This document shows positions 4,052-26,584 of a stretch of DNA of 29,046 nucleotides, piece after piece (position 1 is the first letter of the stretch; each line of letters starts with the position of its first letter). Made by a program: the position numbers and the translations under genes. The notes under the pieces are model-generated. The model was not told the origin of the DNA. It saw nothing but the letters and a program-made list of their open reading frames with translations, and did not search any database. Source of the DNA: a virus. The DNA lies in IMG/VR virus record IMGVR_UViG_3300035698_009059, positions 1 to 29,046 of that record. The stretch is one strand, 5' to 3'.

Positions 4052-4065
4052 CGCAATCGATTGCG
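4052..4065. repeat. Dispersed intergenic palindrome, copy 1
   Basis: Perfect 14-base palindrome CGCAATCGATTGCG, starting directly after the TAG stop at 4049-4051 and ending 9 bases before the ATG at 4075. As RNA it could form a 5-bp stem with a UCGA loop. The 12-base core recurs at four other junctions. Confidence 0.95.
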
Positions 4066-4074
4066 TGGAGAGCA

Positions 4075-4773
4075 ATGGCTGTGATTACTACCATCGGCCT
4101 TCGTGCCATAGACCAGGGAGTTATCGAGACTCTCGGCGGTGGTCTGTTTGATCTGGTTGTGGACGGTGGCACGAGGAAAGCATACGCCATTGATGTTGCC
4201 GGTATAGAGACAAGTGTTGCCGGGTTCGACGGAAGGGTGCCGGTATATTTCGCCTTTCCAGAGGATGTTTTCTCGAAGTATTCGTTGCCGTGTTTTGTTG
4301 TCAGGCGTGGTGATTTGACCCCTGCGTTCGAGCGCCAGCCTTGGTACGGTTATAGTCGAGTCCCGTCCGAAACGTCGAAGTCCGTGACCGTGAAGGGGAG
4401 ATATGGCCGGTATGTGACTGGCCCAGATGCTTTCGATGTGAGAATGTATCCTGTCCCGTTCGATATTTCCTATGATGTTTTGGTGGTTGGCCGGAGGCAA
4501 TCAGACGGGCTGAAACTGTTGGCCCATGCCCTCGGAGTAATGACGCCGCCGTATTTTTCTTTGAGATGTTTTGACAGTGCGGGCGATTCAAGGCTTTACG
4601 ATGCGGGTGAAGTTTCGGTATCATCGGATTCTGAGCTTGCTGATATAGCTGACCGGAAAGTGGCATGGACGTTTTCTTTTGCTGTCCGTGCCGAGCTTGA
4701 TGTAAAGGAAATGTCTACTGAGACAGATATCATCACAGCCGTTCCTGGCTTGACTGTTGGTGGACTTGACTAG
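4075..4773 (+). CDS. Putative tail terminator / proximal sheath-stabilising protein (gp15-like)
   Basis: The product has 232 residues. After a short N-terminal strand region it has an LPCFVVRRGDLTPAFER segment, a long beta-alpha-beta section with MYPVPFDISYDVLVVGRRQSDGLKLLAHAL, and a C-terminal strand (KVAWTFSFAVRAEL). This matches the tail-terminator fold used by contractile phages to cap tube and sheath at the neck: a target-side loop, Y-x-I/V strand, long helix and closing strand. Location just before the sheath operon supports this. It is the first of five genes preceded by the dispersed palindrome. The precise family remains uncertain. Confidence 0.5.
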   Translation: MAVITTIGLRAIDQGVIETLGGGLFDLVVDGGTRKAYAIDVAGIETSVAGFDGRVPVYFAFPEDVFSKYSLPCFVVRRGDLTPAFERQPWYGYSRVPSETSKSVTVKGRYGRYVTGPDAFDVRMYPVPFDISYDVLVVGRRQSDGLKLLAHALGVMTPPYFSLRCFDSAGDSRLYDAGEVSVSSDSELADIADRKVAWTFSFAVRAELDVKEMSTETDIITAVPGLTVGGLD

Positions 4774-4784
4774 AGGAGGGTGCG

Positions 4785-5261
4785 ATGCCTTGGTATTACT
4801 ATAGCGGAGATCATTCAGTTGCGGTTCCTGTTGGGGATGGAGAGGTTCGTTCGATTCGCCCTCACAGCAAGTTCTTTGTGAATCCTGGATCTGAGTCTGG
4901 TCTTGCCTTCAAGATGTTGTTGCGAAAGGGCAAGGTTTGTGCTACATCTCCAGTCAAGGGTGTCGAGCCACCAAAGCCGAAAGTTGATCTTGAAGTGGAA
5001 CTGAAGCTGCCACCGACGAGGTTTTCTTCGTCCGTGACCGAAACCAGCTTCGGGCCTTCCAAACCTGTAGAAGTCACCGTACAAGAATGGAGTGATTCGG
5101 GCAGTGCTGGCAAGGTTGCCGCCAAGGTTGCCGCAGCGCTGAAGACCAAATCCTCTGGCTCCAAGAAGTCCAAAAAGGGCAAGGAGCCCGAATCGGATGC
5201 GATGCCCGAATCGATCGAGCAGATCGTGACGGACGAGTCAAGTAACGGAGGCGAGAAATGA
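4785..5261 (+). CDS. Conserved small virion protein preceding the sheath
   Basis: The product has 158 residues, with GAGGAGGG before the ATG. The N-terminus MPWYYYSG followed by a short domain with RPHSKFFV and LLRKGKV resembles a small protein I recall near sheath genes in other myoviruses. Residues 60-105 are a proline-rich linker, then come an Ala/Lys helix, a KKSKKGK cluster and an acidic tail. It overlaps the sheath start by ATGA, so its translation is coupled to the sheath. Role unknown. Confidence 0.55.
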   Translation: MPWYYYSGDHSVAVPVGDGEVRSIRPHSKFFVNPGSESGLAFKMLLRKGKVCATSPVKGVEPPKPKVDLEVELKLPPTRFSSSVTETSFGPSKPVEVTVQEWSDSGSAGKVAAKVAAALKTKSSGSKKSKKGKEPESDAMPESIEQIVTDESSNGGEK

Positions 5262-7750
5262 GCCAGTACACGTACCCTGGGATTTACCTGAAAGAGAACT
5301 TTGGTACTCCGGTATCAATCAACGGGGATAGCCCGTCAACCTTGTCTCTGGTTGGCTGGACGAAGCAGGGGCCGATGGAGCCCACGCTGGTCACGTCTTG
5401 GCCCGAGTTCGCCGAGACATTCGGCGGGTTCACCACTGATAGTGACGTTCCGGTTATGGCCTATGCTTTCTTCAAGAACGGTGGGAGCCGGCTGTACGTT
5501 GTTCGGGTTGCCCCGAGCGATGCGACTGGTGCTTCTTTCACCATGAGCAACTATGTTGAAGGTGAGGTGCTTACCCCCGATGCCGCCGTTGTTGCGGGAC
5601 AGACCGTTGTCATGTTCACTGGGAGCAATGTGCTTGATTCGTTGCCGCTTACGGCAGAGACGCTGAAAATCGTCGACAGTGCTGGCAATGAGTTCGAGGA
5701 TAGTGGTGACGGGGTTCTGGATAGTTCAAGTGGTTCGGGGTCGGTTGATTACGACACTGGTGAGATCGTTCTCGAGTATACGTCTGCTCCAGGTGCCGCT
5801 GTCACGTATGAGGCCGAGTACGACTGTAAGGTTTTCACTTTTGAGATGAAGTGGGCTGGGGCAGTTGGTGCTTACTTCGGTTTATGGATCGGTGGAGATC
5901 CGAACTATGAAGAGATGGCCACCGGTGCTTATTCGAGATTCATCGTTGAGGTTCGACGGTACACGTCCGAGAGTTCGTTCGTGTCCCTTGAGACCTTTAC
6001 CGGTTTGAGCCTGACAGATCCTACAGACGATGATTACATCGTGACGGTGTTGAACGATGCGTTGTCAGGTTCGGATTATGTCGAGGTCACGGAGTACGGC
6101 AACACGTTTGAGTTGGTTGGTTTCTTCAATGGTGCGCCGAAGGTTGACCTTGTAGGGTCGCTTGCACCCTTACCAGATGGTGGCGAGAAGCAGTTCGAGG
6201 TAACTCTGGACGATGGTGGAAGTGATGAGTTCGCTTGTAGTCCTTCGTCCTACAGGGGCTATCTCGGCTTGTGCGAGAAAGACATCATCGTTGGCCTTGG
6301 GGACGGCACTGCCAGCCCTGTTGTGGCGATGCTGCCAGGACAAGTCGCTGAGCCAGATGCTGGCGATGCTTTGTTACAGGCAACGCTTGTCCTCGATTGG
6401 TCCTCGACTGGCCCAGCCGGAGAGGAACAGGCTTTTGTGATCGCCACGGGTGCCGTCGGTGATGTTTTCCCCCTGGAAGACAGTGGCGGGAGTTCTATTG
6501 GGACAGTGAACCTGTTGACCGGGGCAATATCTCTCACGTTTGCCGTACCAGCGGACTTTCCTGTTGCCGGTACGCTGATTTTGGCCTCGGTGAAGTGGGG
6601 AGATCCTGTTGTGATCGTTGATGATGGGTACGGGGTGCTTTCCAAGGAGAGTGGTCCTGCACATATCTCCCTGAACCAGAACGGGACGAATGAGATAGAC
6701 TACGGTGTGGCTGGCGGTCCGGACGATGATTCGGTTGGTGCTGTTGTCCAGTTCATGCTGAAGGCAAGTGATAACCCAAGAAGGGGTCCGGCGAGTGCCT
6801 ATGCTGCGACCGGAGTCGATGGCACGAATTTCTCCTCGACATTCTACACGAAGGCGATGGAGTCTGGCGCTGAGTTTGAGATGGATGGTGGCGACGACGG
6901 TTCTGCTCTCACGAGGAGCTCGATCAGTGGTGCTGCCCTCGCTGCCGAGTACAAGGGGCTGTACGCTCTGGACAAGGTTGACGAGATGATGAACATTGTG
7001 GTTCCTGATTTCTGCACAGACCTTTTGGTTTGTGGCGACGTCATGGATTACTGCGAGGCAAGAAAGGATCGCTTCGGTCTTTTCTGTGTGCCAGAGGGGT
7101 TGACTTACGCCCAGGGTGCAACTTACCGGAAGGCAAATTTTGCCGGGCTCCACAACCGGACAGCGATGTACTGGAACCATATCAGGATCACCGATCCTGT
7201 GACCCTGAAGTCGAGGCTTCTCCCGAACGTGGCCCATGTCGCTGGTATCATTGCCAGGACAGATGGAGCCAAGAACGTGGCGAAGGCTCCTGCTGGGATG
7301 GTTGATGGTGCGCTTCGGTTCTGTGAAGGGCTCGAATTTGACCCGACGAAAGAGCAGGTCGGTGTTTTGACTTCGGCCAGTGTCAATGCGTTGGTGCAGT
7401 GGCCGTTCACTGGCAGGTGCGTCTGGGGTGCCCGCACGATGGCTCCTGTGAAAGACCAGGAATTCATCCAGCAGATTCGTACCTTCATGTACGTTGAGCG
7501 AGCCGTCTACAACAACACGTGGGGCACCGTGTTCGAGAACGCCAGCGCTGGGCTTGTGGCGAAGACCGTGAAAGAGCTGGAGAACTTCCTCCTGAAGTTG
7601 TACGGCAAGGGATACTTCAAGGGCAGCACGCCTTCCGAAGCCTTCTCTGTCAGTGGCCGAGTCGTCGGTTCTGGCACTGCCTATGACATTGGCATTGCGA
7701 CCACGAAGCCGAACGAGTTTTCGACCTTCACGTTCATGCCGAAGAACTAA
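5258..7750 (+). CDS. Tail sheath protein
   Basis: The product has 830 residues. The N-terminus YTYPGIYLKE and LVGWTKQGPMEPTLVTSWPEFAETFG is the standard start of contractile sheath proteins, followed by AYAFFKNGGSRLYVVRV. The C-terminal domain (about 680-830) has the conserved sheath region with QWPFTGRCVWGARTM, the QIRTFMYVERAVYNNTWGTVFE helix and the final strand ending FTFMPKN. The middle (roughly 90-520) is a large beta-rich expansion likely exposed on the tail surface, making this longer than a minimal sheath of 350-500 residues. It overlaps the upstream gene by four bases. Confidence 0.95.
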   Translation: MSQYTYPGIYLKENFGTPVSINGDSPSTLSLVGWTKQGPMEPTLVTSWPEFAETFGGFTTDSDVPVMAYAFFKNGGSRLYVVRVAPSDATGASFTMSNYVEGEVLTPDAAVVAGQTVVMFTGSNVLDSLPLTAETLKIVDSAGNEFEDSGDGVLDSSSGSGSVDYDTGEIVLEYTSAPGAAVTYEAEYDCKVFTFEMKWAGAVGAYFGLWIGGDPNYEEMATGAYSRFIVEVRRYTSESSFVSLETFTGLSLTDPTDDDYIVTVLNDALSGSDYVEVTEYGNTFELVGFFNGAPKVDLVGSLAPLPDGGEKQFEVTLDDGGSDEFACSPSSYRGYLGLCEKDIIVGLGDGTASPVVAMLPGQVAEPDAGDALLQATLVLDWSSTGPAGEEQAFVIATGAVGDVFPLEDSGGSSIGTVNLLTGAISLTFAVPADFPVAGTLILASVKWGDPVVIVDDGYGVLSKESGPAHISLNQNGTNEIDYGVAGGPDDDSVGAVVQFMLKASDNPRRGPASAYAATGVDGTNFSSTFYTKAMESGAEFEMDGGDDGSALTRSSISGAALAAEYKGLYALDKVDEMMNIVVPDFCTDLLVCGDVMDYCEARKDRFGLFCVPEGLTYAQGATYRKANFAGLHNRTAMYWNHIRITDPVTLKSRLLPNVAHVAGIIARTDGAKNVAKAPAGMVDGALRFCEGLEFDPTKEQVGVLTSASVNALVQWPFTGRCVWGARTMAPVKDQEFIQQIRTFMYVERAVYNNTWGTVFENASAGLVAKTVKELENFLLKLYGKGYFKGSTPSEAFSVSGRVVGSGTAYDIGIATTKPNEFSTFTFMPKN

Positions 7751-7759
7751 GGAGTAGAG

Positions 7760-8269
7760 ATGTCGAAAGCTCCAACAATGCTGCCAGACTTCATCGTCCA
7801 GGAATTCAATGACGGTGCCGGTGGCGGGACTCTGGGCACTCTCACGGGGATAGCCCCGGACGGTACCCTCGATGACGTAGAAGTCGGATCCCCGTACTAT
7901 AACGGGCGAGTCTGGAAGTATAAGGAGTGCATGGACGGTGGAAGGATTGTCTCTCCAGAGTCTGCTATGTTGGTCCGGTCGATTTCTTTTGCAGCTACCG
8001 GGACAACTGCCCTGAGTGTTTACATGGAAGATCCCAATGCCCCGGCAGGGCAGCTTGTTCCGAAAGTGATGAACAGTGCGGATCTTGATTACACGAGTGG
8101 CGCTATAGATCCTTCAACGGGCCTGTATTGGGCACCGCCGGGAGGGTTACTAGTCCCTCCTGGCTGGTTTTTCTACGTGAAGACCATCGGGAATATGTCG
8201 AAGCCTGGAGCTTTGGTCGTGCGGATCGATGGTGGTTGGGGCGTTCACATTGGACAACTGTACCAGTAA
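7760..8269 (+). CDS. Beta-rich hypothetical protein between sheath and tube
   Basis: The product has 169 residues, with AAGGAG before the ATG. Composition is Gly/Pro/aromatic and beta-rich. The C-terminal strand set GGLLVPPGWFFYVKTIGN and ALVVRIDGGWGVHIG resembles small jelly-roll-like virion proteins. No enzymatic motif. In most contractile phages the tube gene follows the sheath directly, so this is an interposed protein, perhaps decorating the sheath or tail surface. That is inference. Confidence 0.6.
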   Translation: MSKAPTMLPDFIVQEFNDGAGGGTLGTLTGIAPDGTLDDVEVGSPYYNGRVWKYKECMDGGRIVSPESAMLVRSISFAATGTTALSVYMEDPNAPAGQLVPKVMNSADLDYTSGAIDPSTGLYWAPPGGLLVPPGWFFYVKTIGNMSKPGALVVRIDGGWGVHIGQLYQ

Positions 8270-8281
8270 GAGGAGAACGAT

Positions 8282-8884
8282 ATGGCCAGAGCAGCGAGCA
8301 CAGATTTTCTTCAGAGTTTCCGGTTTCACGTCGCACTGATTGAGGCTGCGGGCGAGTATAACCCGCTTCAGCCTTCCGGCATTATTGACGACTTGTACGT
8401 TGGTGGCGAGGCTGGGTTCCAGAGTGTAACCCTTCCCGAACTGTCGGCGGAGCCCGTCGAATATCGTGAGGGCACGTGGAAGTACACCAAGAAGTTCGTT
8501 GGTCCTCCCACGGTGTCTGACTCGACTTTGATTCGTGGAGTGACCTCGAAGGACACTGCGTTCTTCCAGTGGGCGATTGCTGCCATCAGTGGTGGTGAGT
8601 ACCGAGTCGATCTCGATATTCAGCAGTTTGCCCGGACGGACCTTGCCGGAGGCGGCGATCCTAGCGAGATGTCTGAATTGCCGTCGCAGGTTTCTCGGTC
8701 CTATATCTGCCACGAGTGCGAGCCGACCCGTTGCAAGCCAGGTGCTGACATGGATGCGACTTCCGGGGAAGTCTCGATGCAGGAAGTCGACTTCGCCTTG
8801 GAATGGTTCGAGGTCAAGTCGAATACACCGCTTGACGGATCGAATATTCTACCGCAGGCGTATGCTACCGAGGCAACCGAATAG
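8282..8884 (+). CDS. Tail tube protein, paralogue 1
   Basis: The product has 200 residues. The start is ATG 8282 after AGAGGAGA. The pattern is that of T4 gp19-like tube proteins: REGTWKYTKKFVGPPTV, then STLIRGVTSKDTAFFQWA and a C-terminal SGEVSMQEVDFALEWFEV strand. It forms the inner tube around which the sheath contracts. An unusual cysteine group, C143-H144-E145-C146 and C151, precedes the SGEV strand and could bind a metal or form a disulfide. The closely related next gene shares the H-x-C-x-P-x-R-x-K-x-G-x-D-x-DA-x-SGEVS-x-QE pattern. Confidence 0.8.
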   Translation: MARAASTDFLQSFRFHVALIEAAGEYNPLQPSGIIDDLYVGGEAGFQSVTLPELSAEPVEYREGTWKYTKKFVGPPTVSDSTLIRGVTSKDTAFFQWAIAAISGGEYRVDLDIQQFARTDLAGGGDPSEMSELPSQVSRSYICHECEPTRCKPGADMDATSGEVSMQEVDFALEWFEVKSNTPLDGSNILPQAYATEATE

Positions 8885-8909
8885 TCGTTGATTCACCGAG
8901 GGGGCTTTC

Positions 8910-9494
8910 TTGGCACGCAGCAGACTACTGGACTGGCTCCAAGACCACACGTTTTGGGTCACAGATATCTCGCTGAGCAAGAGGGCTCCCTTCTTTGCCC
9001 TTGGTGGCGTTCTCTACGGTTACTCGACCGCTTCCTCTCCAGAAATCACGTTTGAGTCTGATTCGGTGGTCCAGTATGCGGATCAGTACGATGAGCATTT
9101 CGGTACGAAAGTGACGGTGAGCCCTATCACGTTGACCCGTGGTTCGACTTCGATAGACAGTACAATGTGGCAGTGGATTATCCGTGCCTCAATGGGCCTG
9201 GATCGTGTCGAGAGGGACTTGTTGTTGATTCACTTGTCCGGGGTTGCGCTGGTGGGTGACACGAACAATGCAGGAGCCCCTTCGATGGCAAGTGCTGTTC
9301 CGGGTTCCGGTTTGGCCGAGGTAGTGAGGACGTTTGGGAAGGGGTGGGTACTCCACGGGTGCCTTCCGGTTCGCTACAAGGCCGGCTCTGATTTCGATGC
9401 GAAGAGTGGTGAGGTTTCGATCCAGGAACTTGACGTGCAACCAAAGAGGATTACTGAATTTTCTTTAGATCCGCTCCTTTTGCTGGACGTATAG
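8910..9494 (+). CDS. Tail tube protein, paralogue 2 (TTG start)
   Basis: The product has 194 residues. I place the start at TTG 8910, since GAGGGGG at 8898-8904 has correct spacing and the resulting N-terminus MARSRLLDWLQ aligns with MARAASTDFLQ of the preceding tube protein. It keeps the gp19-like pattern: TVSPITLTRGSTSIDSTMWQWI and YKAGSDFDAKSGEVSIQELDV. It retains only one of the three paralogue-1 cysteines (HGCLPVRYK). The two may form different tube segments or a tube and its adaptor. Confidence 0.75.
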   Translation: MARSRLLDWLQDHTFWVTDISLSKRAPFFALGGVLYGYSTASSPEITFESDSVVQYADQYDEHFGTKVTVSPITLTRGSTSIDSTMWQWIIRASMGLDRVERDLLLIHLSGVALVGDTNNAGAPSMASAVPGSGLAEVVRTFGKGWVLHGCLPVRYKAGSDFDAKSGEVSIQELDVQPKRITEFSLDPLLLLDV

Positions 9495-9512
9495 TGGACG
9501 TAAAGTTATGAT
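9484..9512 (+). promoter_or_regulatory. Candidate promoter with 11-base-period direct repeats
   Basis: TGGACG (9484-9489), a 17-base spacer and TATGAT (9507-9512) resemble a sigma70 promoter. The 8-mer TGGACGTA occurs twice, at 9484-9491 and 9495-9502, eleven bases apart, so both lie on the same helix face, as for an activator or repressor site. It precedes the small-gene island. Confidence 0.4.
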
Positions 9513-9535
9513 GGCTACTGGAATTGGGGGACGAA

Positions 9536-9781
9536 ATGAAGTCTTTTAAGAGCAGAAAACTTGTTGTGTTTGGTGTTGTGTTTGTCCTTGCGGTCTTGAA
9601 CAAGATTTTCGAGATCGTGGATCTGGACACGCTCAATGCCATGGTGGCGCTAGTAGTTGGCTGGCTGGTATCGCAAGGGATTGCCGATGCCGGGTCCAGG
9701 GATGTAGCGGTGAGTGCGGAGAAGGCTGCCGGGACCGTGGTTGATGCTGTGAAGCCTGGGTTATTGACTGAGGACAAATGA
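9536..9781 (+). CDS. Small two-helix membrane protein (holin-like)
   Basis: The product has 81 residues. Start ATG 9536 is chosen over TTG 9524 because GGGGGA at 9526-9531 is well placed. Two hydrophobic segments, about residues 9-24 and 36-51, are joined by a short loop with Asp/Glu, after a basic N-terminus (KSFKSRK). The Ala-rich tail is soluble. The size and hairpin topology fit class II holins and a common family of small phage membrane proteins with an S-R-K start and a QGIADA end. No endolysin gene is nearby, so a lysis role is unproven. Confidence 0.6.
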   Translation: MKSFKSRKLVVFGVVFVLAVLNKIFEIVDLDTLNAMVALVVGWLVSQGIADAGSRDVAVSAEKAAGTVVDAVKPGLLTEDK

Positions 9782-9795
9782 CGCAATCGATTGCG
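9782..9795. repeat. Dispersed intergenic palindrome, copy 2
   Basis: CGCAATCGATTGCG directly follows the TGA at 9779-9781 and ends 14 bases before ATG 9810, next to the ribosome site GGGAG. Confidence 0.95.
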
Positions 9796-9809
9796 CAAAG
9801 GGAGATGAC

Positions 9810-10061
9810 ATGCGAGATGTGATTGGTAGGATTGAAGAGTTGGCTGAGTCGAGGATCTCCGGTGCTGTGTCGATTTCCGGTATGGCTGGGAAAGAGAAGG
9901 CCATTGCGCAGAAGATGTTTGATAAGGGGTATCGTTACATCCTGTACCCTGCGAAGGGAGAGAGCAACCCTGCTCCTTTGTACGCCAAGACTTTGCGGGA
10001 TGCAGTCGAGATGATGAAGGATCTTGGCAAGGGTGCCAGGGGTGCTCCCCTGGAGGAGTGA
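9810..10061 (+). CDS. Small hypothetical protein, first of three sharing an N-terminal segment
   Basis: The product has 83 residues, with GGGAG before the ATG. It begins MRDVIGRIEELAES, a short amphipathic helix also found at the start of the genes at 10063 and 10357. The rest (KAIAQKMFDKGYRYILYP..., LYAKTLRDAVEMMKDLG) suggests a small alpha/beta fold with no known motif. The dispersed palindrome sits just upstream. Function unknown. Confidence 0.6.
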   Translation: MRDVIGRIEELAESRISGAVSISGMAGKEKAIAQKMFDKGYRYILYPAKGESNPAPLYAKTLRDAVEMMKDLGKGARGAPLEE

Positions 10062-10062
10062 C

Positions 10063-10347
10063 ATGCGTGACGTGCTGAAAGACATCGAGGCCATGCTTGA
10101 GGGTGCTCCGTCGAAGAACCGGAAGTCGATTGCCGGGGATCCGGGGCGTGTCTCTCGTGCCGGGGCAGATATCTTTCATGCGACAGATGTCACGATTCGT
10201 GTGAACCTCGGGGTTGCGGACTTGAGGAAGTTGCTTGCGGGCAAGGATCTTGAGATTGATGCGAAGGATGTGAAGAAACGAGACAACGAGTCGAACGTCT
10301 ACCGTGTCGTGCTTCGGTACGGTGGGCGTGGCGTACCTGAATTTTAG
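10063..10347 (+). CDS. Small hypothetical protein, second with shared N-terminal segment
   Basis: The product has 94 residues from ATG 10063, one base after the upstream stop and with GGAGG at 10052-10056. It starts MRDVLKDIEAMLEGAPSK, related to the neighbours' N-termini. The C-terminal half has a strand-helix-strand character (DVTIRVNLGVADLRKLLAG and YRVVLRYGGRG). No known family. Coupled to the previous gene by proximity. Confidence 0.6.
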   Translation: MRDVLKDIEAMLEGAPSKNRKSIAGDPGRVSRAGADIFHATDVTIRVNLGVADLRKLLAGKDLEIDAKDVKKRDNESNVYRVVLRYGGRGVPEF

Positions 10348-10356
10348 GATACTGAT

Positions 10357-11226: not shown

Positions 11227-11260
11227 GTGTGTATGGCGACGCTTACAATGGAGGTGTGTC

Positions 11261-11425: not shown

Positions 11426-11428
11426 GGC

Positions 11429-11713
11429 ATGCAGGTTTGCACGAGGGAAGTAACTGTTGCCATGGTTCGTGTACCGTCTTCGTCCGGCAAGGATGTTTAC
11501 ACGGTGAAGGTTATTGGTGACGCTGCTGTGTCGTGTTCATGCCCTGGGTTCACTTATCGGGGGAAGTGCAAGCATTTGGCTGTATCGAGGGATGCTTGTG
11601 GCTGGAACGAGGGTTGCGATGACAAGCAAACTGGGAGACAGCACCAGTTGCATATTTGTCCTCGCTGTGGTGGTATCACCGATAACGTGTTGGCTGAGAG
11701 TCGTGGAGGTTGA
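11429..11713 (+). CDS. SWIM zinc finger protein
   Basis: The product has 94 residues. A strand pair leads into C36-S-C38, eight residues, then C47-K-H49, the CxC...CxH signature of SWIM zinc fingers, with the usual G-F and K-H-L residues around it. A second knuckle CPRCGG lies near the C-terminus. SWIM domains bind DNA or protein partners. This stand-alone small version gives no further clue to its target. The start ATG 11429 is three bases after the upstream stop. Confidence 0.75.
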   Translation: MQVCTREVTVAMVRVPSSSGKDVYTVKVIGDAAVSCSCPGFTYRGKCKHLAVSRDACGWNEGCDDKQTGRQHQLHICPRCGGITDNVLAESRGG

Positions 11714-11715
11714 GG

Positions 11716-12147
11716 ATGACTGAGAAGGTCCAGTTGTTGACGTACAAGGAGGCCATGCTTGATGGTTTGTACGAGACTATCAGGATAGTGATGCCTGGGA
11801 TTCAATACCCTGCGTTGCGTAGCATCTTCGGGGAGGGGTATGATGTTGGGGATGCTGTTCTGTTTTTCATGCGCCCCAAAGACCCGCAGGAAGGTGGCGA
11901 CGGGTTGCGGTTCTCGTTGGCAAGTGCAAGTATTGCCCGAGTGAAAGATGAGCCGTTTGCTTGGCACGTGGCTGCTCCTGTTGGCGCTGGAGTCAAGATT
12001 CGGTACGTGGCCTATCGTGCCTCGGAAGTCGACACGGATCGGTTCGACCTTCCTGTGGCTGAGGAGGCTGAAGTTGATGTTGTTGCGAGTGGAGTGTTGG
12101 ATTTTTCTGCAATGCTGAAGAAGCATAGGGGAGGTACAGATGTCTGA
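11716..12147 (+). CDS. Hypothetical protein, first of a tandem paralogue pair
   Basis: The product has 143 residues from ATG 11716, with GGAGG at 11705-11709. The N-terminus (LLTYKEAMLDGLYETIRIVMPG) and the later GDAVLFF match the next gene (LLTFDESMAAGMSELVKVLAPG, GDAVLFYP), so the two arose by duplication. The C-terminal half is beta-rich and differs from its partner. No known family. It overlaps the next gene by 8 bases. Confidence 0.6.
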   Translation: MTEKVQLLTYKEAMLDGLYETIRIVMPGIQYPALRSIFGEGYDVGDAVLFFMRPKDPQEGGDGLRFSLASASIARVKDEPFAWHVAAPVGAGVKIRYVAYRASEVDTDRFDLPVAEEAEVDVVASGVLDFSAMLKKHRGGTDV

Positions 12148-12487
12148 GAAACTGCTTACGTTCGATGAGTCGATGGCTGCTGGCATGTCAGAGCTTGTAA
12201 AGGTGCTTGCACCGGGCCAAAAGATGAAGGGTGTGTGTGGCGTATCTGGGGAGAGTTTCAGTGCGGGCGATGCCGTTCTGTTCTATCCGTTTATGATCAA
12301 GGTTGATGGTGAAGGAGATGACACGGAGGCCACCTTTGAGATCACCTTGTCAAAGGTCGAGCACTTGCGGACTGCCGGGTATCGGTGGATGAAGAGTTGT
12401 GCGGAAGTGGACAAGCCACACCTGTTTGCTTTTCGCGCTTTCCGTGGCGATGGTTACAAGAGCGCCGAGTGCTCCGAAGTGAACTAA
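12140..12487 (+). CDS. Hypothetical protein, second of a tandem paralogue pair
   Basis: The product has 115 residues, overlapping the previous gene by 8 bases, with AGGGGAGG before its ATG. It shares the N-terminal helix and the GDAVLF strand with its neighbour and is shorter at the C-terminus. Three cysteines (C33, C87, C111 approximately) are not arranged as a clear metal site. Function unknown. It ends the transcription segment before a 78-base gap holding a promoter. Confidence 0.6.
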   Translation: MSEKLLTFDESMAAGMSELVKVLAPGQKMKGVCGVSGESFSAGDAVLFYPFMIKVDGEGDDTEATFEITLSKVEHLRTAGYRWMKSCAEVDKPHLFAFRAFRGDGYKSAECSEVN

Positions 12488-13701: not shown

Positions 13702-13859
13702 AAGAAGACGTCTTCTTTCTGAGCGAGTATTGGCATATTCCGCCTGATCAGGTAAGGTCGATGAGGTATTCTTTTCGACGTCGTATGGTGATGCGTAAGG
13801 AAGAGTTGGAGCGCAAGCGGAAGCAGATGCAGGGTACACCGGCGAGGACGCCACGATAA
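12916..13859 (+). CDS. Frameshifted tail assembly chaperone (-1 fusion product)
   Basis: A -1 shift at 13668-13674 moves ribosomes past the zero-frame TAG (13699-13701) into a frame open to TAA at 13857-13859. The product has 314 residues: 253 shared residues plus a 61-residue extension with LEEDVFFLSEYWHIPPDQV followed by a strongly basic helix (RYSFRRRMVMRKEELERKRK). The extension has no start codon with a ribosome site of its own. This mirrors the G/GT arrangement of lambda and similar frameshifts in other phages, where the longer form links the chaperone to the tape measure. Confidence 0.7.
13668..13674 (+). other. Programmed -1 ribosomal frameshift site TTTTTTC
   Basis: T-TTT-TTC in zero-frame codon register fits the X-XXY-YYZ rule exactly. 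A weak hairpin UUCC/GGAA (13675-13686) follows at once, and a stronger palindrome lies at 13702-13717. Position before the tape measure gene is the classical one. Confidence 0.75.
13702..13717 (+). repeat. 16-base palindrome at the end of the chaperone zero frame
   Basis: AAGAAGACGTCTTCTT is a perfect palindrome starting right after the zero-frame stop. The RNA can form a 6-bp stem with an ACGU loop, extended by a G-U pair. It is 27 bases past the slippery site, farther than the usual 5-9, so a stimulatory role is uncertain. Confidence 0.6.
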
Positions 13860-13860
13860 T

Positions 13861-13872
13861 GCAATCGATTGC
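13861..13872. repeat. Dispersed intergenic palindrome, copy 3
   Basis: GCAATCGATTGC, one base after the TAA at 13857-13859 and 13 bases before ATG 13886. It shares the flank ...GCGTGAGGT with copy 5. Confidence 0.95.
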
Positions 13873-13885
13873 GTGAGGTTCCGGG

Positions 13886-16800: not shown

Positions 16801-18058
16801 GAGTCTTGGCGAAGGCTTCATGGAGTATATCTGGAATCCTCTTGTGAACACTGTCGCAGGCTTGTTTGGGGTGCTTGAGGATTTGTTTGACTTGCTCATT
16901 TTCAAGCCGTTGAATTGGCTCTGGGATCAGTTCAAGTCTGGCCTGTTCAACCTGGGTGCGTTGTTCGAGGAGAACGTGTGGAATCCGTTGATGAGCTTCT
17001 TTGGGGGCGTAGGTGATGCTGTGTCGTCTTTTTTCAAGGATGTCGTGGTTGACCCGTTGCTGGCTGCTTTGAATGTGATTATAGATACTTACAACAGCAT
17101 GTCAGGCTTCCTGGGTCTGAGCAAAAGGGATAATCTGAGATTCGGCATTGACGGTGATCTCGAATGGTTCGACAGAGAAAAGGAGAACATCAAAGAGATC
17201 GACAGTGAAATGAAGAAGCTGGCGATTGTCAATGCGGACACGACGTGGGAGCCAGTACAGGATCCGAGGATGAGTAAACATGCGGATCCTACGTCTGGCC
17301 TTGTTCCTGTGAGCCCGTCTGCGGCTGCTTTTGGTGGGTATGATGGGAGGAAGAAGAAGCCGGACTTTGAGTTTGGTTATGGGTTCGGTGATCCTGTTGA
17401 CGCTGGAGAGTCTGCTGCGAAGGGCTATATAGCTGGATACAGGAACGGGGACGTGGTTGGCAATGTCCAGGATGTGCTCCAGGGGGTTGATGACCAGTTG
17501 CCACATTCCCCGCCGAAAGACCCGAAGTCCCCCCTTCGTGGCCTGGAAGATGCTGGTGTTTCGACGATCGAGATGTTCGTGTCTGGTATGGAGTCGGCAG
17601 AGTCGATGTTGCTTGATGCCACCAGGGAGCTTTTCGGGATGGTTGGTCTTGTCGGCAGTGAGGCGATGTCCGGGGCGATAACCAGCGATCTCGGTAGTGT
17701 CATTGAGGCGTTGACACTGGAGATTGAGAAGCAGTTCGAGGATCTTGGGTTTTCTGCCGGTAGTTTGTTCGTGGAGGGTGCCGAAGAGTTCGTCAGTGAT
17801 CGTGCAAAGATGTTGACGAAGAAGTTTGCGTCTGCGATTGCGGCTGGGGTTTCCACGATTGACCAGAGGAACCTTGAGGTCGGTGACAGCGTGGTGAAGT
17901 TGAACCTGGACGGTGCGGATCTGATTGTGAGTTCGATCGCCCAGCAAACGAAGGTCTTGTCCATGCACCTGATTGACATTGGATCGAAGATTGAGAAGAC
18001 CAACGAGTTCCTGGATCACAAGCGTGGCGGTGCGGTTCGGATGAGGGTGGTGAGCTAA
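13886..18058 (+). CDS. Tape measure protein
   Basis: The product has 1390 residues, the longest gene here, placed after the chaperone as usual. The N-terminal 300 residues are helical with Gly/Ala/Ser bias. A hydrophobic region at about 535-615 (FMPVAIGLVGSLWGLHKVAAIL, GPAGLIVGAVGGTAYALV) is typical of tape measures that insert in the host membrane. Three repeats of about 49 residues, each opening with V/I-W-E/N-P, occupy roughly 932-1078. The C-terminus is soluble. At about 0.15 nm per residue the tail would be about 200 nm (inference). Start ATG 13886; the stop overlaps the next ATG (TAATG). Confidence 0.92.
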   Translation: MSLLGFSFGFGARDEGLHGAMSSATGQLGGLNDAMGDINTTAKESKLGTWIQGIQSMQLSGIQDSIEKLTGGAVNLTNGLESTFKSMRVEIAPTVAQMGLYGAAAAEAKSEIMGIAYASQISADQVAKTYRALHSAGTGTKEVFESMGLSLADLTKLEQTTGIDTENLASQIDNLGTSYGFSKEQMVEYLDEFTASAQKAGVAHVAFAKMDSILAALDDQLAGSKWFADMDLESQTKHIKDVSLGIVQLSGLFQRMGKTPEEAIEASDAFFKQLADGDKTMSRMQTGLDSVGENFTALAESAGVEMSADIFKQDPRKALDNLVKIRNSMIGVGKDTTRFDQQMENILPGFSFLASGLSSGKIAMDDFASSSKDAAGALKKMGDAGFENPLTDEDKLQRVKDRFDSLLLSVGGGGKSFLRQQTKVYGQVGDAIEELASDEKWGPLTKRFALAARVGNTAFFLPINQSAKDFGASIESVTEQSGFFSRKMAAFQQFGFAGMFVDVSHGVDEMKDSVGAANEKVQKMLGLVELIKINLDTFMPVAIGLVGSLWGLHKVAAILSPVLGALSSAMGLMMKTSAGRGAVSFLKFFGPAGLIVGAVGGTAYALVKYGDEIEKFAVDSLKSMTKWLDGVDEWLSGLDGAEIANDLIDTVVGWFSDIPGTIAKIFSFGDGSELGGAASAFGNSLVSVVTKGLNVLWDFFSTLGTRIASKVMEVDWSALAESASAAVTGAFSDASQFIGQGVDWAKGMVDSIKATDFSKIGADLQVALSPFVTALVDFVKKLPSMMLKYSLKVSELVDMVLPKISELSSELRRWMGTAAKKFEEFLGGLFDGVGDSAEGFFADFDWESMFLAVWEQVLNVGKILGVVSKFFLDVAAGVLDFAPMLLKGLWGVVKFALDGIVTGLANLVDFIVEPLFEALGFKNIKIGQWWLDEVWEPFKLILDGLADVAIGLFESLFMGPINMIRDWFAGEKSLGEGFMEYIWNPLVNTVAGLFGVLEDLFDLLIFKPLNWLWDQFKSGLFNLGALFEENVWNPLMSFFGGVGDAVSSFFKDVVVDPLLAALNVIIDTYNSMSGFLGLSKRDNLRFGIDGDLEWFDREKENIKEIDSEMKKLAIVNADTTWEPVQDPRMSKHADPTSGLVPVSPSAAAFGGYDGRKKKPDFEFGYGFGDPVDAGESAAKGYIAGYRNGDVVGNVQDVLQGVDDQLPHSPPKDPKSPLRGLEDAGVSTIEMFVSGMESAESMLLDATRELFGMVGLVGSEAMSGAITSDLGSVIEALTLEIEKQFEDLGFSAGSLFVEGAEEFVSDRAKMLTKKFASAIAAGVSTIDQRNLEVGDSVVKLNLDGADLIVSSIAQQTKVLSMHLIDIGSKIEKTNEFLDHKRGGAVRMRVVS
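16679..17118 (+). repeat. Three protein-level repeats in the tape measure
   Basis: Units of about 49 codons begin near EVWEPF, YIWNPL and NVWNPL. They share a hydrophobic helix, an LF/FF region and a P-I/L-N or DPL segment. The first two also share R/W-D-x-F and an LG. The third is more divergent. Confidence 0.6.
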
Positions 18059-18426
18059 TGGCACGTATCGGACTGGCAAGCGGAAGGAGCAGTTGGTTGC
18101 GGCATTGTGAAGTGACTGTTGCCGACGTACCCCGGAGCCCGATTTCCGAGCCGGCCAAGACGAGTTGGTTTGGGATGTTCGTTGGTGACGAGATCGAAGA
18201 GAACAGTGATGACTTCGAGTACACCGTTGACTATGGCGAGCGGCTCCCTGCTTTGGCCGAGCGGTTCTATGGTGATCCGCTGGCGTGGTGGGTACTTGCG
18301 AAGCGGAACGATATATGGTTGCCGGATGTCCAGGTCTATCCTGGGTTGGTTCTGATTGTGCCGGACCCGAAGTATGTAAAGGATCGCTACCTCGGTTCGG
18401 CGCAATCGATTGCGCAGCGGGGTTGA
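18058..18426 (+). CDS. LysM-domain tail protein (gp53-like)
   Basis: The product has 122 residues. A LysM-like domain at 54-104 has Y-T-V-x-x-G-E-x-L-x-x-L-A-E-R-F-Y-G-D and a closing V-Y-P-G-x-x-L-I-V-P. Such proteins sit beside the tape measure and hub in many contractile phages and correspond to a baseplate wedge or hub-binding component. The last eight or so residues (AQSIAQRG) are encoded by the dispersed palindrome and look like an appended tail. The start overlaps the tape measure stop. Confidence 0.75.
   Translation: MARIGLASGRSSWLRHCEVTVADVPRSPISEPAKTSWFGMFVGDEIEENSDDFEYTVDYGERLPALAERFYGDPLAWWVLAKRNDIWLPDVQVYPGLVLIVPDPKYVKDRYLGSAQSIAQRG
18401..18414. repeat. Dispersed palindrome, copy 4 (inside coding sequence)
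   Basis: CGCAATCGATTGCG, extended to a 16-base perfect palindrome at 18400-18415. It lies in the last codons of the LysM gene, 13 bases before ATG 18428, the only copy within a reading frame. Confidence 0.95.
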
Positions 18427-18427
18427 C

Positions 18428-19819
18428 ATGCCCCACCCGAGTTTTCTCCAGAGCCAGCCATTCATCAAGATCATCGAGTCCAGCAAAGACAGCAATGGCA
18501 ATGTCGTACTGACAGACAACGTGCTGTCTCCCAACGAATTCCCCTTCGTTTCGGGTGTGACCATCGTGCAGACCGGGACAGATGTAGATGTCCAGAACGG
18601 CGTGAACATAGAGTTGTCCCTTGACATGCCGTACGAGGAAGGAATCGCCTTGCTGAGTGGGGAGTATGGCGGATTGATCAAGAATGGGAACGTGTTGGTT
18701 GTTTCCCTCGGGTACAGGGACGGTTCCGGGATGGTTACTTCGAGTTTCTCGGGTATCGTGACCGATGGAGGGAGTGGGCTTACGCTCGGGCCGGAGGGTT
18801 TGAGTGGTTCGATTCGTGCGACGTGTGCTGCGACCCAGACCCAGTATAGTGAGACGTTCACGGACAAGTTTTTTGCAATGGGGCCGGAACAACAACTGGT
18901 CTATCTGGCGAAGAAACAGGGTTATTCGACCGTAAATGTTTCCAATGAGGCGTCAGGTACTCTGGATTTGGTCGAGCCTGTGAAGTTCAATGGGCAGATG
19001 TCGTATGTTGGTGCCCTCGAGAAGCTGTTGCGCCATTTTGGTTTGGTTGCGACCGCTGGGCCGATTGCTGAGGGTGGGGCTTCTCCAGTGGTTCCTGTGG
19101 ACGGTGAACTGGTCTTGAGCGTGTATTCTCCTGGAGCAGAGACTCAATCGTTGCTTCCTGTGGTCAAGTTTGGGCTTCGTGGCGACATGAGCGATGGTGA
19201 GACTTGGCCTATTCTTGCGTGGAACCCCGAGGTCAATGCTGCCAACTTCAACGTGACGCAGGTCAGTAGTGGTGCGAACGCCTCGGTAGTGATGTCCGGG
19301 ATAGACAAGAACGGGGAGATCCTCGTGTGTGCCGTGAACCCCGCCGCCACCGACACTGCCAGGACGATGAAGAACAGGAAGTCTGGTCCGACCGGGCTGT
19401 CCGATATGGCTGGCACGCAGCAGGTCGATGTTCAGGTCGATGGTGCTGGGGAAGTCAACGCCTCGAGTGCTCTGAGTTCGTTGACGCAGGAAGGAACAGA
19501 TGGAGTGAACGTGGCCGGGATGCGCATGGGTTTGACTTCCTCCGAGAACGCAACGGTGGAGGGGAGTGTTGGTCTGCTGAAGCGGATGATTCTTCCGTTC
19601 ATTACAGGCACGCCAGTTGGCCTCACGACACTTGGTTGTCCCTTGGTGACTTGCGGGACGATGATCGAGATATTTGGCGTTGGAGATTATCTGAGTGGCA
19701 ACTATCAAGTGAAAGAGGTCACGCACGCATGGACGCCCGGTTCCTGGGAGACAACTTTGTCAGCGTTTGCCCAGTCGAAGGCCGGAAGTGCTGGTGATGC
19801 CGTGAAAGGAGTCGATTGA
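18428..19819 (+). CDS. Baseplate hub protein (gp27/gpD-like)
   Basis: The product has 463 residues from ATG 18428. It has the layout of hub proteins: N-terminal strands with NGVNIELSLDMPYEEGIALLSG, a GLIKNGNVLVVSLGYRDG barrel strand and FSGIVTDGGSGLTLGP, a helix-rich centre (YVGALEKLLRHFGLVATAG), and a C-terminal barrel ending in GDYLSGNYQVKEVTHAWTPGSWETTLSAFA, a very typical hub ending. It would form the trimeric ring joining tube and spike. Its stop overlaps the spike start (TGATG), and the palindrome precedes it. Confidence 0.8.
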   Translation: MPHPSFLQSQPFIKIIESSKDSNGNVVLTDNVLSPNEFPFVSGVTIVQTGTDVDVQNGVNIELSLDMPYEEGIALLSGEYGGLIKNGNVLVVSLGYRDGSGMVTSSFSGIVTDGGSGLTLGPEGLSGSIRATCAATQTQYSETFTDKFFAMGPEQQLVYLAKKQGYSTVNVSNEASGTLDLVEPVKFNGQMSYVGALEKLLRHFGLVATAGPIAEGGASPVVPVDGELVLSVYSPGAETQSLLPVVKFGLRGDMSDGETWPILAWNPEVNAANFNVTQVSSGANASVVMSGIDKNGEILVCAVNPAATDTARTMKNRKSGPTGLSDMAGTQQVDVQVDGAGEVNASSALSSLTQEGTDGVNVAGMRMGLTSSENATVEGSVGLLKRMILPFITGTPVGLTTLGCPLVTCGTMIEIFGVGDYLSGNYQVKEVTHAWTPGSWETTLSAFAQSKAGSAGDAVKGVD

Positions 19820-20793: not shown

Positions 20794-20794
20794 C

Positions 20795-21139
20795 ATGGGT
20801 TGCTGTATCAGAGTTCCTGAGTTTGCGCTTCCCTCGGTGCCCATTCCTGGGTTGCCAAGCATTGGTTTGCCAAGCATTGAGTTGCCGAGCCCGCCTTCTT
20901 TGCCAGAGATTCCGGGGCTGTCTTTGTCGGTTGCGCTTCCCTCTGTTCCTGTTCCTGGGTTGCCGAGTATAGGTTTGCCGGTGATTGACCTTCCTGTGGT
21001 GGTTGTGCCTGGAGTTTCTGTCTCGGTTGCGTTACCCTCTGTGCCAGTGCCAGGGCTTCCTAGTATTGGGCTTCCTGTCATTGAACTACCAGACTTGCCG
21101 ACCATGAAGTGTCCGGCTTCATGCGTGACGGAGGGATAA
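20795..21139 (+). CDS. Pro/Leu-repeat protein with terminal cysteines, spike-associated
   Basis: The product has 114 residues made almost wholly of three repeats of about 32-36 residues: ALPSVPxPGLPSIGLP then I-D/E-LP or similar, and a connecting segment. Pro recurs every three to five residues. The N-terminus is MGCC and the C-terminus has C106-x3-C110, so possible metal ligands lie only at the two ends. It lies directly between the spike and gp25-like genes, where contractile systems often encode a spike tip or adaptor. I know no family with this pattern. It begins one base after the spike stop and ends overlapping the next ATG. Confidence 0.65.
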   Translation: MGCCIRVPEFALPSVPIPGLPSIGLPSIELPSPPSLPEIPGLSLSVALPSVPVPGLPSIGLPVIDLPVVVVPGVSVSVALPSVPVPGLPSIGLPVIELPDLPTMKCPASCVTEG

Positions 21140-21534
21140 TGAAGTTACCTCGAAGCGTCCCGAGCAGTGCGAAGGGCATGGCCTTTCCTTTTGGTTCGTC
21201 CGATGGTGGTACGCCGGGCACTGTGACTGGAGCCGAGGCTATCCTGAGCAACGTGAAGTCTCTCATGGGGATTGCCAAAGGGGAGCTTCCGATGCGGCCA
21301 GACGTTGGGACGATAGTCAACGATTTCGTGTTCGACAACATTGACCCTTTGCTTGAGGCTCAGATCGTGTCGGAGGTGAGGAGGCTTGTGTCTGTCGGGG
21401 AGCCACGAATGGATGTTCTGGCTGTTCTCGTGAAGGGAGCAAGGAGTGATGGGTTGTCTGGGACAGACGTTGAGGTCCACTACGACATACCGGGGCTCAA
21501 GAGCGGTGTGCTGACAACTCCAATAGGGACGTGA
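21139..21534 (+). CDS. Baseplate wedge protein, gp25/gpW-like
   Basis: The product has 131 residues. ATG 21139 overlaps the upstream stop (TAATG) with GGAGGG before it; an upstream in-frame start lacks this. The family signature is clear: GELPMRPDVGTIVNDFVFDNID and the E88-P89-R90 core motif, followed by MDVLAVLV. gp25 proteins form the core of the wedge and nucleate sheath assembly in phages and type VI secretion. The N-terminus is about 15 residues longer than minimal members. Confidence 0.9.
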   Translation: MKLPRSVPSSAKGMAFPFGSSDGGTPGTVTGAEAILSNVKSLMGIAKGELPMRPDVGTIVNDFVFDNIDPLLEAQIVSEVRRLVSVGEPRMDVLAVLVKGARSDGLSGTDVEVHYDIPGLKSGVLTTPIGT

Positions 21535-21541
21535 GGGAGTC

Positions 21542-23644: not shown

Positions 23645-26571
23645 TGACCGAAGAAACGACAAGAATGGGGATTCCTTACCCTTCCGAGAATCAAGAGTCG
23701 TGGTATGACGCCTTCGAGTCAGCGATGACCCAGTTGGATACTGCCATTTTCGCCGGGTTCGAGCACAGGAATCATGCGTTGTACGGTGGTGGCACGATTT
23801 CGTGGCAGTTGGTTGGCACGGAGTGGCGGCTTGAGTGGACAGACGATCTGGTAGTGATGTCCCCGGCATACGGGCAGAAGATTTCGATTCCTGCGTCGTC
23901 GTCCCCGGTGGTTGTTCCGAGCGGTTACTTCGCCTATGTGCAGGTTCCTGTTGGTTCGACTGTCGAGGCTAGTATCGTCACGGTCGAGTCGGCCTCACAG
24001 ATTCCGATCGGCAATGGTGCGATGGTTCTGGGTTTCCATGACCCAGAGACAGATGCTTTTGTCTGGAGGACCGGGCTTGTCCTGACTTCGGGCTCGAGCG
24101 TAGCGACTGGTGTGTTCCCGATGACGGTGATCAACGTCGTAGATGGGAACGCTGTGCAGATCAACGGGAAGGATCTGTGCTCTGGCACGCTGGCACCCTC
24201 AGACGAGGATATTCTGAGGTACGATTCTGCGACCGGGAAGTGGTGTAACGAGACTCTTCCGACACCTGCACCATCCCCGAACTACCATACAGCGAAGTAC
24301 ATTGTTGGGAAGAATTCAGCCTGTGAGTACAGCCCGTATGGGGCTTCCGGCAAGCAGTATATCCAGGACGCCATTGACGATGCTTACATTGAGGTGAGTG
24401 TCGGGTTTTCCGATGGTGCTGTGGTGTTCGTGCAGGAGGGGACGTACGATGAGGACTTGGTTTTCAAGCCAGGCGTGAGCGTGGTCGGGGCTTCCCCTGC
24501 TGTGAGTATTGGCGGGGTGTCGCACTACAGGACGACGATTGAAGGGAAGCATGAGGTGACACCGTACCTGCTTGATCCGTCTGTGGCGAAGGATTCGTTT
24601 GCGGACGTGTCGATTCTGTTTGAGAACATTAGGTTCAAGTATTCGCCGGTGACACCTGTGCTTGGGGACGTTGTTTTCGAGTTCCTGGATCACACCCCGG
24701 TAGGTGGCGAGGTTGGAGTCCATGTCGTCACGTTCATGCGGTGTTTCCGTGACGAGACAGAGATTGATACTGGCACCGGTGATGTTGTCCAGTCGAACAC
24801 GACGAGGTTTCTGGAAGTCGACTGTGGCCAGTGCGCTGCCGATGTTGAGTTCATTCATACCCACGTGACCGGTGGGAGCGGAGATGCCCTCGGGACGTAC
24901 GACGGCAAGGGCGGACCGGTATACATGGACAACGAGAGTACGTTGGTGCTGAGGGACAGTTCGATTGGTTTCAAGCAAGCCGATGCGGCTGCTACCCCTG
25001 GGTATAGACCATCGATAGGCTTGTTTGACGAGTCCGTCCTTGTGGCGTACAGGTCTTCGTTTGACGGGGCCGTGTGGATGGACGGAGGAGGTGTTGTCCG
25101 GGTATCAATGGATGGGTGCGATGTCGTTGGGAGCACGCACTTGTCGAGTGATGATTCGTTCCGGTCCCCGTTCATCTTTGCTGGTGACGAGATTTACCTG
25201 GATTTGTGGCGGACCGTTGTGACTGGAGATGAGGGGACCGGTGACGGGCTGTACTATGCCTTTGCTGGTTTGATGACTGGTTCTGGAGGCATGGTTCTCT
25301 ACAGTGATGTTTTGTTCCAGTCTGCTTCGGGCGCTGCCGCGTTGAGGGCAGGTACGGAGCCGGCCCTTGTGTCTTCGGGTATGGCTGTGAGTGCGCTGAA
25401 GTCCACGGTGTCGTCGGGTTCAGACTCTTGGGCTTACCGGTGGGCCGATCCGTCTGTTCACGGCGGCAACAGCCAGCCATCCGGCGGCGGGACGTATAAC
25501 GGGAAGGATGCTGTTTTTGGTTCAGACGTGAGCATTGCCGGGAAGTTGACTGTGGCCGGGCTGATTGACCCGACCGGGTTGGTTCTGGACGAGCAAGCGT
25601 CGGCTCCTGCAGGAGATGTTGCGACGAAGGCCCAGATATGGGTCAAGGATGATGCTGGCACGCAGCGTCTTGTGTATAGGGATGGTGCCGGGACAGAGAA
25701 GGTGCTGTCTGATTTCGAGACGAATACGATTTCGAGTGTCGGCGGTGGCCAAAGTGTTGTGAGTGGGAAAGTTGGTTCGGATCTCCAGGTGAAGTCGATT
25801 GCCGGTGGTGGCGGTGTTGCCGTGGTTGACGATGCAACGGAGATCACGATCGGGCCGGGTTCGATGGGCATTTACTCTGCGTCCGAGTTGTTCGAGCAGC
25901 GGTTCCGGGTTGACCCGGACCTCGAGTGGACAGCGGCTGCCGATGCGCACGGCACGTCTGCTGTCAATTTGAGTCCAGCCGGCCTATTCGGGACCGGGAT
26001 GCTGAGGTGTGACTCGGGAGCCTTGACGTGGGCAGCGTACACAGCCAATGCCACCGTTCCGGCTGCTGGCCATGACTTTTTGATGTTCGTGAGACTGAGC
26101 GACGATCCAGATTTCGATTACGGTGAGGTCTTGTTCGGGATTGGTGCTGCGGACTGTAGTGCGGTGACGAGCAAGATTTCGGATCCTGCTGGCGGTTTTG
26201 GCCCATGGGCGGGATTGATGAGAAGGAACGCCTCGGGGACTACCCCGGAGTGGCTTATCGGTTCAGGCGATGCTGTTGGTGCAGAGACAAGCGGTGCGCT
26301 GTCTGGGAGCATGTCAGGCAAGTGGTTCTGGTACAGTTTCAACACAACCACGCTGGTCAGTAAGCTGTGGGTCAACCAGTCGTTCAATGGCACACCTAAC
26401 ATTGAGTTTACTTCGCACTTCGGGCCTTCCGTGAATCCAGGTTCGGCGCTGCATCCAGGGATGTGGATGATGAACGTCAATACTGGTTCGGTTGCTGCGA
26501 AGTCTGTGCAGGTTGAGTCGCAGAAGATATGGTTCCCTCGTGGCGGTGAAGATTTAGTTTCTGTTCCATGA
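23644..26571 (+). CDS. Large tail spike/fibre protein with beta-helix region
   Basis: The product has 975 residues from ATG 23644 (TGATG overlap). Residues 1-60 resemble the baseplate-binding start of phage tail proteins (PYPSENQESWYDAFESAMTQLDTAI). About 240-600 form a right-handed beta-helix of pectate-lyase type: IQDAIDDAYIEV, GAVVFVQEGTYDEDLVFKPGVSVVG, then short Gly/Asp-rich turns. About 640-690 is a phage linker (KAQIWVKDDAGTQRLVYRDG). About 740-975 is a beta-sandwich, possibly lectin-like. It probably binds or degrades host surface glycan. No catalytic residues can be assigned by eye. Confidence 0.65.
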   Translation: MTEETTRMGIPYPSENQESWYDAFESAMTQLDTAIFAGFEHRNHALYGGGTISWQLVGTEWRLEWTDDLVVMSPAYGQKISIPASSSPVVVPSGYFAYVQVPVGSTVEASIVTVESASQIPIGNGAMVLGFHDPETDAFVWRTGLVLTSGSSVATGVFPMTVINVVDGNAVQINGKDLCSGTLAPSDEDILRYDSATGKWCNETLPTPAPSPNYHTAKYIVGKNSACEYSPYGASGKQYIQDAIDDAYIEVSVGFSDGAVVFVQEGTYDEDLVFKPGVSVVGASPAVSIGGVSHYRTTIEGKHEVTPYLLDPSVAKDSFADVSILFENIRFKYSPVTPVLGDVVFEFLDHTPVGGEVGVHVVTFMRCFRDETEIDTGTGDVVQSNTTRFLEVDCGQCAADVEFIHTHVTGGSGDALGTYDGKGGPVYMDNESTLVLRDSSIGFKQADAAATPGYRPSIGLFDESVLVAYRSSFDGAVWMDGGGVVRVSMDGCDVVGSTHLSSDDSFRSPFIFAGDEIYLDLWRTVVTGDEGTGDGLYYAFAGLMTGSGGMVLYSDVLFQSASGAAALRAGTEPALVSSGMAVSALKSTVSSGSDSWAYRWADPSVHGGNSQPSGGGTYNGKDAVFGSDVSIAGKLTVAGLIDPTGLVLDEQASAPAGDVATKAQIWVKDDAGTQRLVYRDGAGTEKVLSDFETNTISSVGGGQSVVSGKVGSDLQVKSIAGGGGVAVVDDATEITIGPGSMGIYSASELFEQRFRVDPDLEWTAAADAHGTSAVNLSPAGLFGTGMLRCDSGALTWAAYTANATVPAAGHDFLMFVRLSDDPDFDYGEVLFGIGAADCSAVTSKISDPAGGFGPWAGLMRRNASGTTPEWLIGSGDAVGAETSGALSGSMSGKWFWYSFNTTTLVSKLWVNQSFNGTPNIEFTSHFGPSVNPGSALHPGMWMMNVNTGSVAAKSVQVESQKIWFPRGGEDLVSVP

Positions 26572-26572
26572 T

Positions 26573-26584
26573 GCAATCGATTGC
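26573..26584. repeat. Dispersed intergenic palindrome, copy 5
   Basis: GCAATCGATTGC, one base after the TGA at 26569-26571 and 13 bases before ATG 26598. Identical to copy 3 over about 21 bases, including the GCGTGAGGT flank. Confidence 0.95.

Follow-up and report, generated by a model that had tools for sequence, protein, structure and literature searches.

The window analysed here (29,046 nucleotides) is a 29-kb IMG/VR virus fragment with a contractile-tail module that includes sheath, tubes, tape measure, gp25 and gpJ. The tail sheath gene (5258-7750, plus strand; PHROG tail sheath, 4.5e-39) encodes a protein 38% identical to the sheath of the related viral record G042 (E 9e-165). Two pairs of tandem paralogues are also present, one of tail-tube-like proteins with 34% identity (8282-8884 and 8910-9494) and one of small proteins with 29% identity (11710-12147 and 12140-12487), and a proline-rich repeat protein with PSVPVPGLPSIGLP units is encoded at 20795-21139, overlapping the start of the gp25-like gene.

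The 12-letter palindrome GCAATCGATTGC occurs in the window in five exact copies, at 4053, 9783, 13861, 18402 and 26573, as reported in the initial annotation and confirmed here with a dyad probability of about 1e-13 (GCAATC/GATTGC, five seen against 0.01 expected; Poisson 9.9e-14). There are no copies with one mismatch, and with two mismatches permitted eight matches are obtained against 1.34 in shuffles. The most frequent 10-bp palindrome in the window is CAATCGATTG, with five copies, the runners-up having one each. A position weight matrix derived from related records scored the five sites at 23.6-28.0 and nothing else above 8; because it finds these five and nothing weaker, the motif in the window is strict, all-or-none. 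The sites, given unstranded, are GCGCAATCGATTGCGT at 4051-4066, before the ATG at 4075 (matrix score 26.2); ACGCAATCGATTGCGC at 9781-9796, before the ATG at 9810 (27.2); ATGCAATCGATTGCGT at 13859-13874, before the tape-measure ATG at 13886 (23.6); GCGCAATCGATTGCGC at 18400-18415, before the ATG at 18428 (28.0); and again ATGCAATCGATTGCGT at 26571-26586, before the ATG at 26598 (23.6). The respective distances to the ATG are 10, 15, 13, 14 and 13 bases, and each of the five copies is followed by a start within 30 bp (0.18 such copies expected); the close upstream position thus stands, while the earlier range of 9-14 bases becomes 10-15. Likewise, placement between stop and start holds for the four copies that begin one base after a stop codon, but not for that at 18402, which is embedded in the final codons of the preceding LysM-like ORF (18058-18426).

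Searching viral contigs with the sheath of the window alone yielded no relatives; the motif itself did find them. Among the matches listed for the motif before an ATG in viral contigs, most records had one copy and a few had three to six, the latter being mutually homologous and tied to the window through neck, sheath and tube genes; the motif-rich clade records have a T4-like portal and a common terminase. Judged by these homologies, the motif search recovered the window's own clade. The general form of the site is RYGCAA-YYRR-TTGCRY, a palindrome of 14-16 bp with mostly TTGCA-type half-sites, and related viral genomes carry 18 sites in 54 kb and about 40 in 99 kb. GCAA-N4-TTGC was counted 20 times in G042, 19 in G053, 19 in G065, 32 in G088 and 14 in G104, and no other 4-4-4 dyad is as strongly over-represented, either in the clade's motif-rich records or in G065, G088 and G104. 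Similarly, GCAAYYRRTTGC occurs 18 times in G042, 10 in G053, 17 in G065 and 27 in G088, the two highest of these counts coming from 54 kb and 99 kb of DNA, respectively, with a count of 0 for the reversed control. Spacing between sites is more even than random in G053 (p.001) and G104 (.004).

The position of all five window copies, 10-15 nt before an ATG, would suit an RNA hairpin or a start-associated element with a part in translation or in the processing of mRNA, readings already offered in the initial annotation. Elsewhere, however, most sites lie inside genes: with genes called by a simple in-house script, 80 of the 135 sites (59%) in the window and ten related records fall within coding sequence, which speaks against a start-associated element. 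The count in relatives proposed earlier did reveal a start-proximal excess (26 of 135 sites within 30 bp upstream of a start, 5.2 expected), but no restriction to junctions. The other 55 sites lie outside coding sequence, though gaps account for 4-25% of the sequence in these 11 records. Since sites shift position between relatives, the notion that particular genes are served by them does not hold; sites are found between stop and start because coding is undisturbed there, gaps being where a site costs least. The hairpin was rejected on two grounds. In transcription sense, the first flanking pair is C..G in 41 cases, T..G in 17, C..A in 10 and T..A in 5, and the second is G..C in 31, A..C in 19 and G..T in 10; RNA pairing would favour G..T over A..C and the reverse is seen, so that the sites are symmetric in the manner of a DNA dyad. 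In addition, the five window segments show no excess of RNA fold stability over shuffles (z -0.02 to 0.65). An mRNA processing site found no support, and we regard any such RNA or start-associated role as extremely improbable.

In five records, a site occupies the same codon position (x-N-R-L-x) of a 285-residue protein encoded after the portal, and GCAATCAATTGC or GCAACCAATTGC stands at the matching codon position in a sister subclade. This kept position suggests, at the level of sequence comparison, a constraint acting on the DNA within coding sequence. In L353:11538-12386 (G053) and its homologues, the codon position of the in-gene site is kept despite strong protein divergence.

The spelling of the sites varies among lineages. 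The centre TCGA is replaced by TCAA, CCGA or TCGG, in some cases at matching positions between relatives, and dialect centres without CpG are common. A search for any dispersed dyad in relatives lacking the window spelling but having a ParB-domain gene identified TTGCAGGnnCCTGCAA in G085 (48 copies in 100 kb, p 9e-119), RCAATCGATTGY as the dialect of G082 (p 2e-30) and TTGAAATnnATTTCAA as that of G070 (p 4e-16), and no dispersed dyads in the remaining relatives of this kind; no convincing alternative dyads were found in the array-free relatives G061, G063, G069 and G073. The arrays of G085, G082 and G070 indicate that the architecture is common and that its spelling follows lineage. Loss in close relatives, which the initial annotation would have held against a function, does affect the spelling, but is answered by a change of dialect, including at matching positions. 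Computationally, the sites constitute a genome-wide array, with about one per 1.7-5 kb, a spacing often more regular than expected by chance, a preference for gaps and lineage-specific spellings of one architecture.

A signal of host origin, either a LacI-family operator, an iterated palindrome or a restriction-related host motif, might be suspected from the occurrence of paired GCAATCGATTGC with LacI-type operator spacing in 102 bacterial genome stretches, many of them from Alphaproteobacteria. Yet no bacterial genome stands out in this paired-motif scan, which gave dispersed LacI-like pairs and no iterated-palindrome host; the dialects track phage lineage across hosts from Vibrio to Rhizobium; and a restriction target would be expected to be avoided, not enriched. 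We consider a host origin highly improbable. The LacI family is absent from the Pfam families listed for G088, G065 and G042 with G053 (at least 25 for the last). The pairs within 30 bp (L230-L309), many of them in Rhizobiales and Sphingomonadales, probably represent paired operators of the LacI family. An otherwise unrelated viral contig (L128, G013) has two GCAATCGATTGC copies 10 bp apart on the reverse strand near 7807-7840 (GCAGCAC-rich), which look like a paired LacI-type operator.

Comparison of gene content between array-bearing and array-free genomes singled out one protein, here termed B, belonging to phrog_17202, whose annotated function is unknown. B was found in G022, G028, G041, G042, G047, G053, G065, G070, G085, G088 and G104, and also in G061, G063 and G079. 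No array was detected in the B-bearing G061 and G063, while G076 and G082 have arrays and no B was found in them, both genomes being incomplete; the association between B and the array has a Fisher p of.001 in a table drawn up once the data had been seen. In 9 of 14 B-bearing genomes outside the window's clade, the start of B is preceded by a site at a distance of 78-151 bp (0.65 expected, P 9e-10), an interval chosen after looking at the data. The B-encoding G079 also has four tandem 21-bp repeats around TGTTAC-NN-GTAACA (L345, 1008-1084), which are iteron-like.

The AlphaFold model of B has a pLDDT of 76, and the two structure models rest on shallow alignments. The predicted fold matches Spo0J-parS with a Z of 10.1 over 115 residues, followed by ParB (8.6), Noc (8.5) and KorB (7.1), with the caveat that middling Z values are common for helical models. 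In Foldseek the 22 best chains were all ParB or Noc, at an E of only 0.16 and a probability of 0.98. A ParB/Noc/KorB-type helix-turn-helix (HTH) is thereby predicted for the middle domain of B. The ParB N-terminal CTPase domain (PF02195, boxes I-III) is absent from B, the fold match covering the HTH region only, and a sequence search of B against the PDB returned nothing. Lacking the N-domain, B has not been filed as a ParB; judged by its model, it resembles the half of a ParB that reads parS. Covariation in the recognition helix was also tried: a Y before RKA accompanied T..A flanks in the metagenomic genomes, but the phages SM1, JP1 and DLP5 break the pattern, and residues of B do not appear to covary cleanly with dialect.

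The neighbour of B in the clade is a separate ParB N-domain protein (phrog_26387, PF02195), and in several clade members the site lies just before this ParB-like gene rather than upstream of B. The ParB-like protein was rejected as sole binder, the gene occurring without an array in G071 and G081 and the array without the gene family in G088, G065 and G022; it tracks the array less well than B does. A conserved inverted repeat, AACATRGCACCATGTT, lies upstream of the ParB-like gene and slightly upstream of the array site in G028, G047, G042, G055 and G056, and is possibly a promoter or second operator. The ParA family is absent from the Pfam families listed for G088, G065 and G042 with G053 (at least 25 for the last), and tblastn of the window's RHH protein against the related records examined gave no match. 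The window contains neither B nor the ParB-like gene, because it is a fragment; G042, however, combines 20 array sites, B and the ParB-like gene with a sheath 38% identical to the window's, and through this link the full genome of the window most likely has both genes.

The genomic neighbourhood of B bears on two other explanations. In isolates, B comes directly after RecA, a Holliday-junction resolvase, a Cas4-like exonuclease and RuvC, which, together with the even spacing over the whole genome, would agree with a Chi-like or primosome-like recombination or replication signal read by a module of RecA, exonuclease, RuvC and B. Chi-like signals are directional, whereas the array sites are palindromes, and a regulator is suggested by the ParB-type HTH and by the site ahead of the B gene itself; a recombination signal is in our judgement distinctly unlikely. 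In the window's clade, on the other hand, the terminase gene comes shortly after B and the ParB-like gene, as would be expected of a packaging or self-recognition mark, with phage DNA tagged for packaging by the protein whose gene precedes the large terminase. Such a mark appears very unlikely given that SM1, DLP5 and others have B in the recombination module, with no terminase annotated in the neighbourhood examined, and that it would be unusual to find pac-like sites scattered by the dozen.

Were B the reader of the array, arrays would be expected in isolated phages that encode it. Nine isolates were picked by homology to B alone and then examined, and eight have a significant array: Rhizobium phage L338C (47 sites, p 4e-116), JP1 (33, p 9e-87), DLP5 (38, p 4e-78), SM1 (30, p 1e-60), HJ05 (p 1e-45), TM16 (p 7e-37), Rhodobacter phage RcZahn (about 28 sites, p 5e-23) and SIO-2 (p 6e-11). 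VHS1, in which B is present, has a weak array (six sites, p 3e-5), and BRock and phiM7, which are not among the B matches, have none. Spacing is even in SM1 (p.0005), L338C (<.0005), JP1 (.0005) and RcZahn (.0035); 111 of 201 sites in the isolates are non-coding, against 25 expected, and 47 lie within 40 bp upstream of starts, against 11 expected. The Stenotrophomonas phages DLP5 and DLP3 (Delepquintavirus) both have B, with an array in DLP5; they are siphoviruses, unlike the window with its contractile-tail module. According to the portions of the two phage papers covered here, each encodes two ParB-domain proteins (PMC5834331, PMC7326821), DLP5 as a prophage takes the form of a phagemid (PMC5834331), and the same was put forward for DLP3 on account of its ParB domains (PMC7326821); those portions do not mention the array. 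UF_RH6, also a B-bearing isolate, has been described as lytic (PMC10281142). Lytic phages of this kind speak for a role beyond lysogeny, so that a function restricted to the prophage would not be general.

Known ParB-family proteins are loaded at palindromic sites, from where they slide or spread; ParB partitions and Noc blocks division. The phage sites resemble the NBS and parS sites of bacterial chromosomes in being 14-16 bp palindromes in many copies, with the same HTH fold predicted for B, and differ from them in sequence, in being phage-borne and in their 2-5 kb spacing over the whole genome. A similar scattering is offered by KorB of plasmid RK2, a ParB-family protein whose 16-bp OB sites are dispersed over the replicon, with a role in inheritance and silencing at a distance (PMC11790492). 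Here too sites of 14-16 bp are scattered over a replicon and the candidate reader is of ParB type; the phage arrays, however, have dozens of sites, unlike the OB sites, and while KorB unites CTPase domain and HTH in one protein, B lacks the ParB N-domain, with a ParB-N protein perhaps next door.

The stoperators of cluster A mycobacteriophages such as L5 and Bxb1 are asymmetric, oriented one way and bound by a monomeric immunity repressor. The comparison with them made in the initial annotation is close in kind, both being dispersed arrays of DNA sites for a protein, but the phage sites are palindromic. A stoperator-type array for another phage regulator, in which a repressor at scattered operators would block elongation and B would be a mere neighbour, would account for about one site per 2 kb, the use of short intergenic gaps and lineage-specific specificity (PMC9283540 and general knowledge), as well as for the transcription of the window from one strand. 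Gap enrichment is strong, though many sites lie in coding sequence; the Pfam families listed for G088, G065 and G042 with G053 (at least 25 for the last) include no integrase or classical repressor; and B alone is consistently common to array-bearing genomes. This explanation is, in our view, unlikely.

We consider it probable that the palindromes form an operator or parS-like array for the phage-encoded ParB-type protein B, which would coat, organise, partition and/or silence the genome. In the proposed mechanism, the palindrome is a putative site for a dimeric phage-encoded DNA-binding protein; B, possibly with the adjacent ParB-N-domain protein, would bind the sites, would autoregulate, and would load along the whole genome to organise or partition it and/or to silence or block transcription. 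Such loading is most plausible when phage DNA persists extrachromosomally, and the best reading is that extrachromosomal phage DNA may be organised, silenced or segregated by the genome-wide array. A more far-reaching version, which we advance tentatively and think doubtful as a whole, is a widespread 'split ParB' of large phages, in which B would be the parS-type HTH and its neighbour the ParB-CTPase, jointly clamping and organising the genome at 15-50 palindromes of even spacing and lineage-specific spelling, with dialects as immunity or incompatibility groups.

No published report of the array was found in the open-access literature searched, and such arrays are not mentioned in the portions covered here of a survey of the ParB-CTPase fold published in 2025, phages included (PMC12704722). 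With these results, what appeared to be a local oddity becomes a general trait of a wide range of phages of 80-110 kb, with hosts from Vibrio to Rhizobium, and the unannotated conserved family phrog_17202 gains a likely role. In the cultured phages it can be tested how genome organisation, silencing or segregation is achieved by large phages that have no evident integrase and, if dialects set specificity, superinfection immunity groups would be predictable from sequence.
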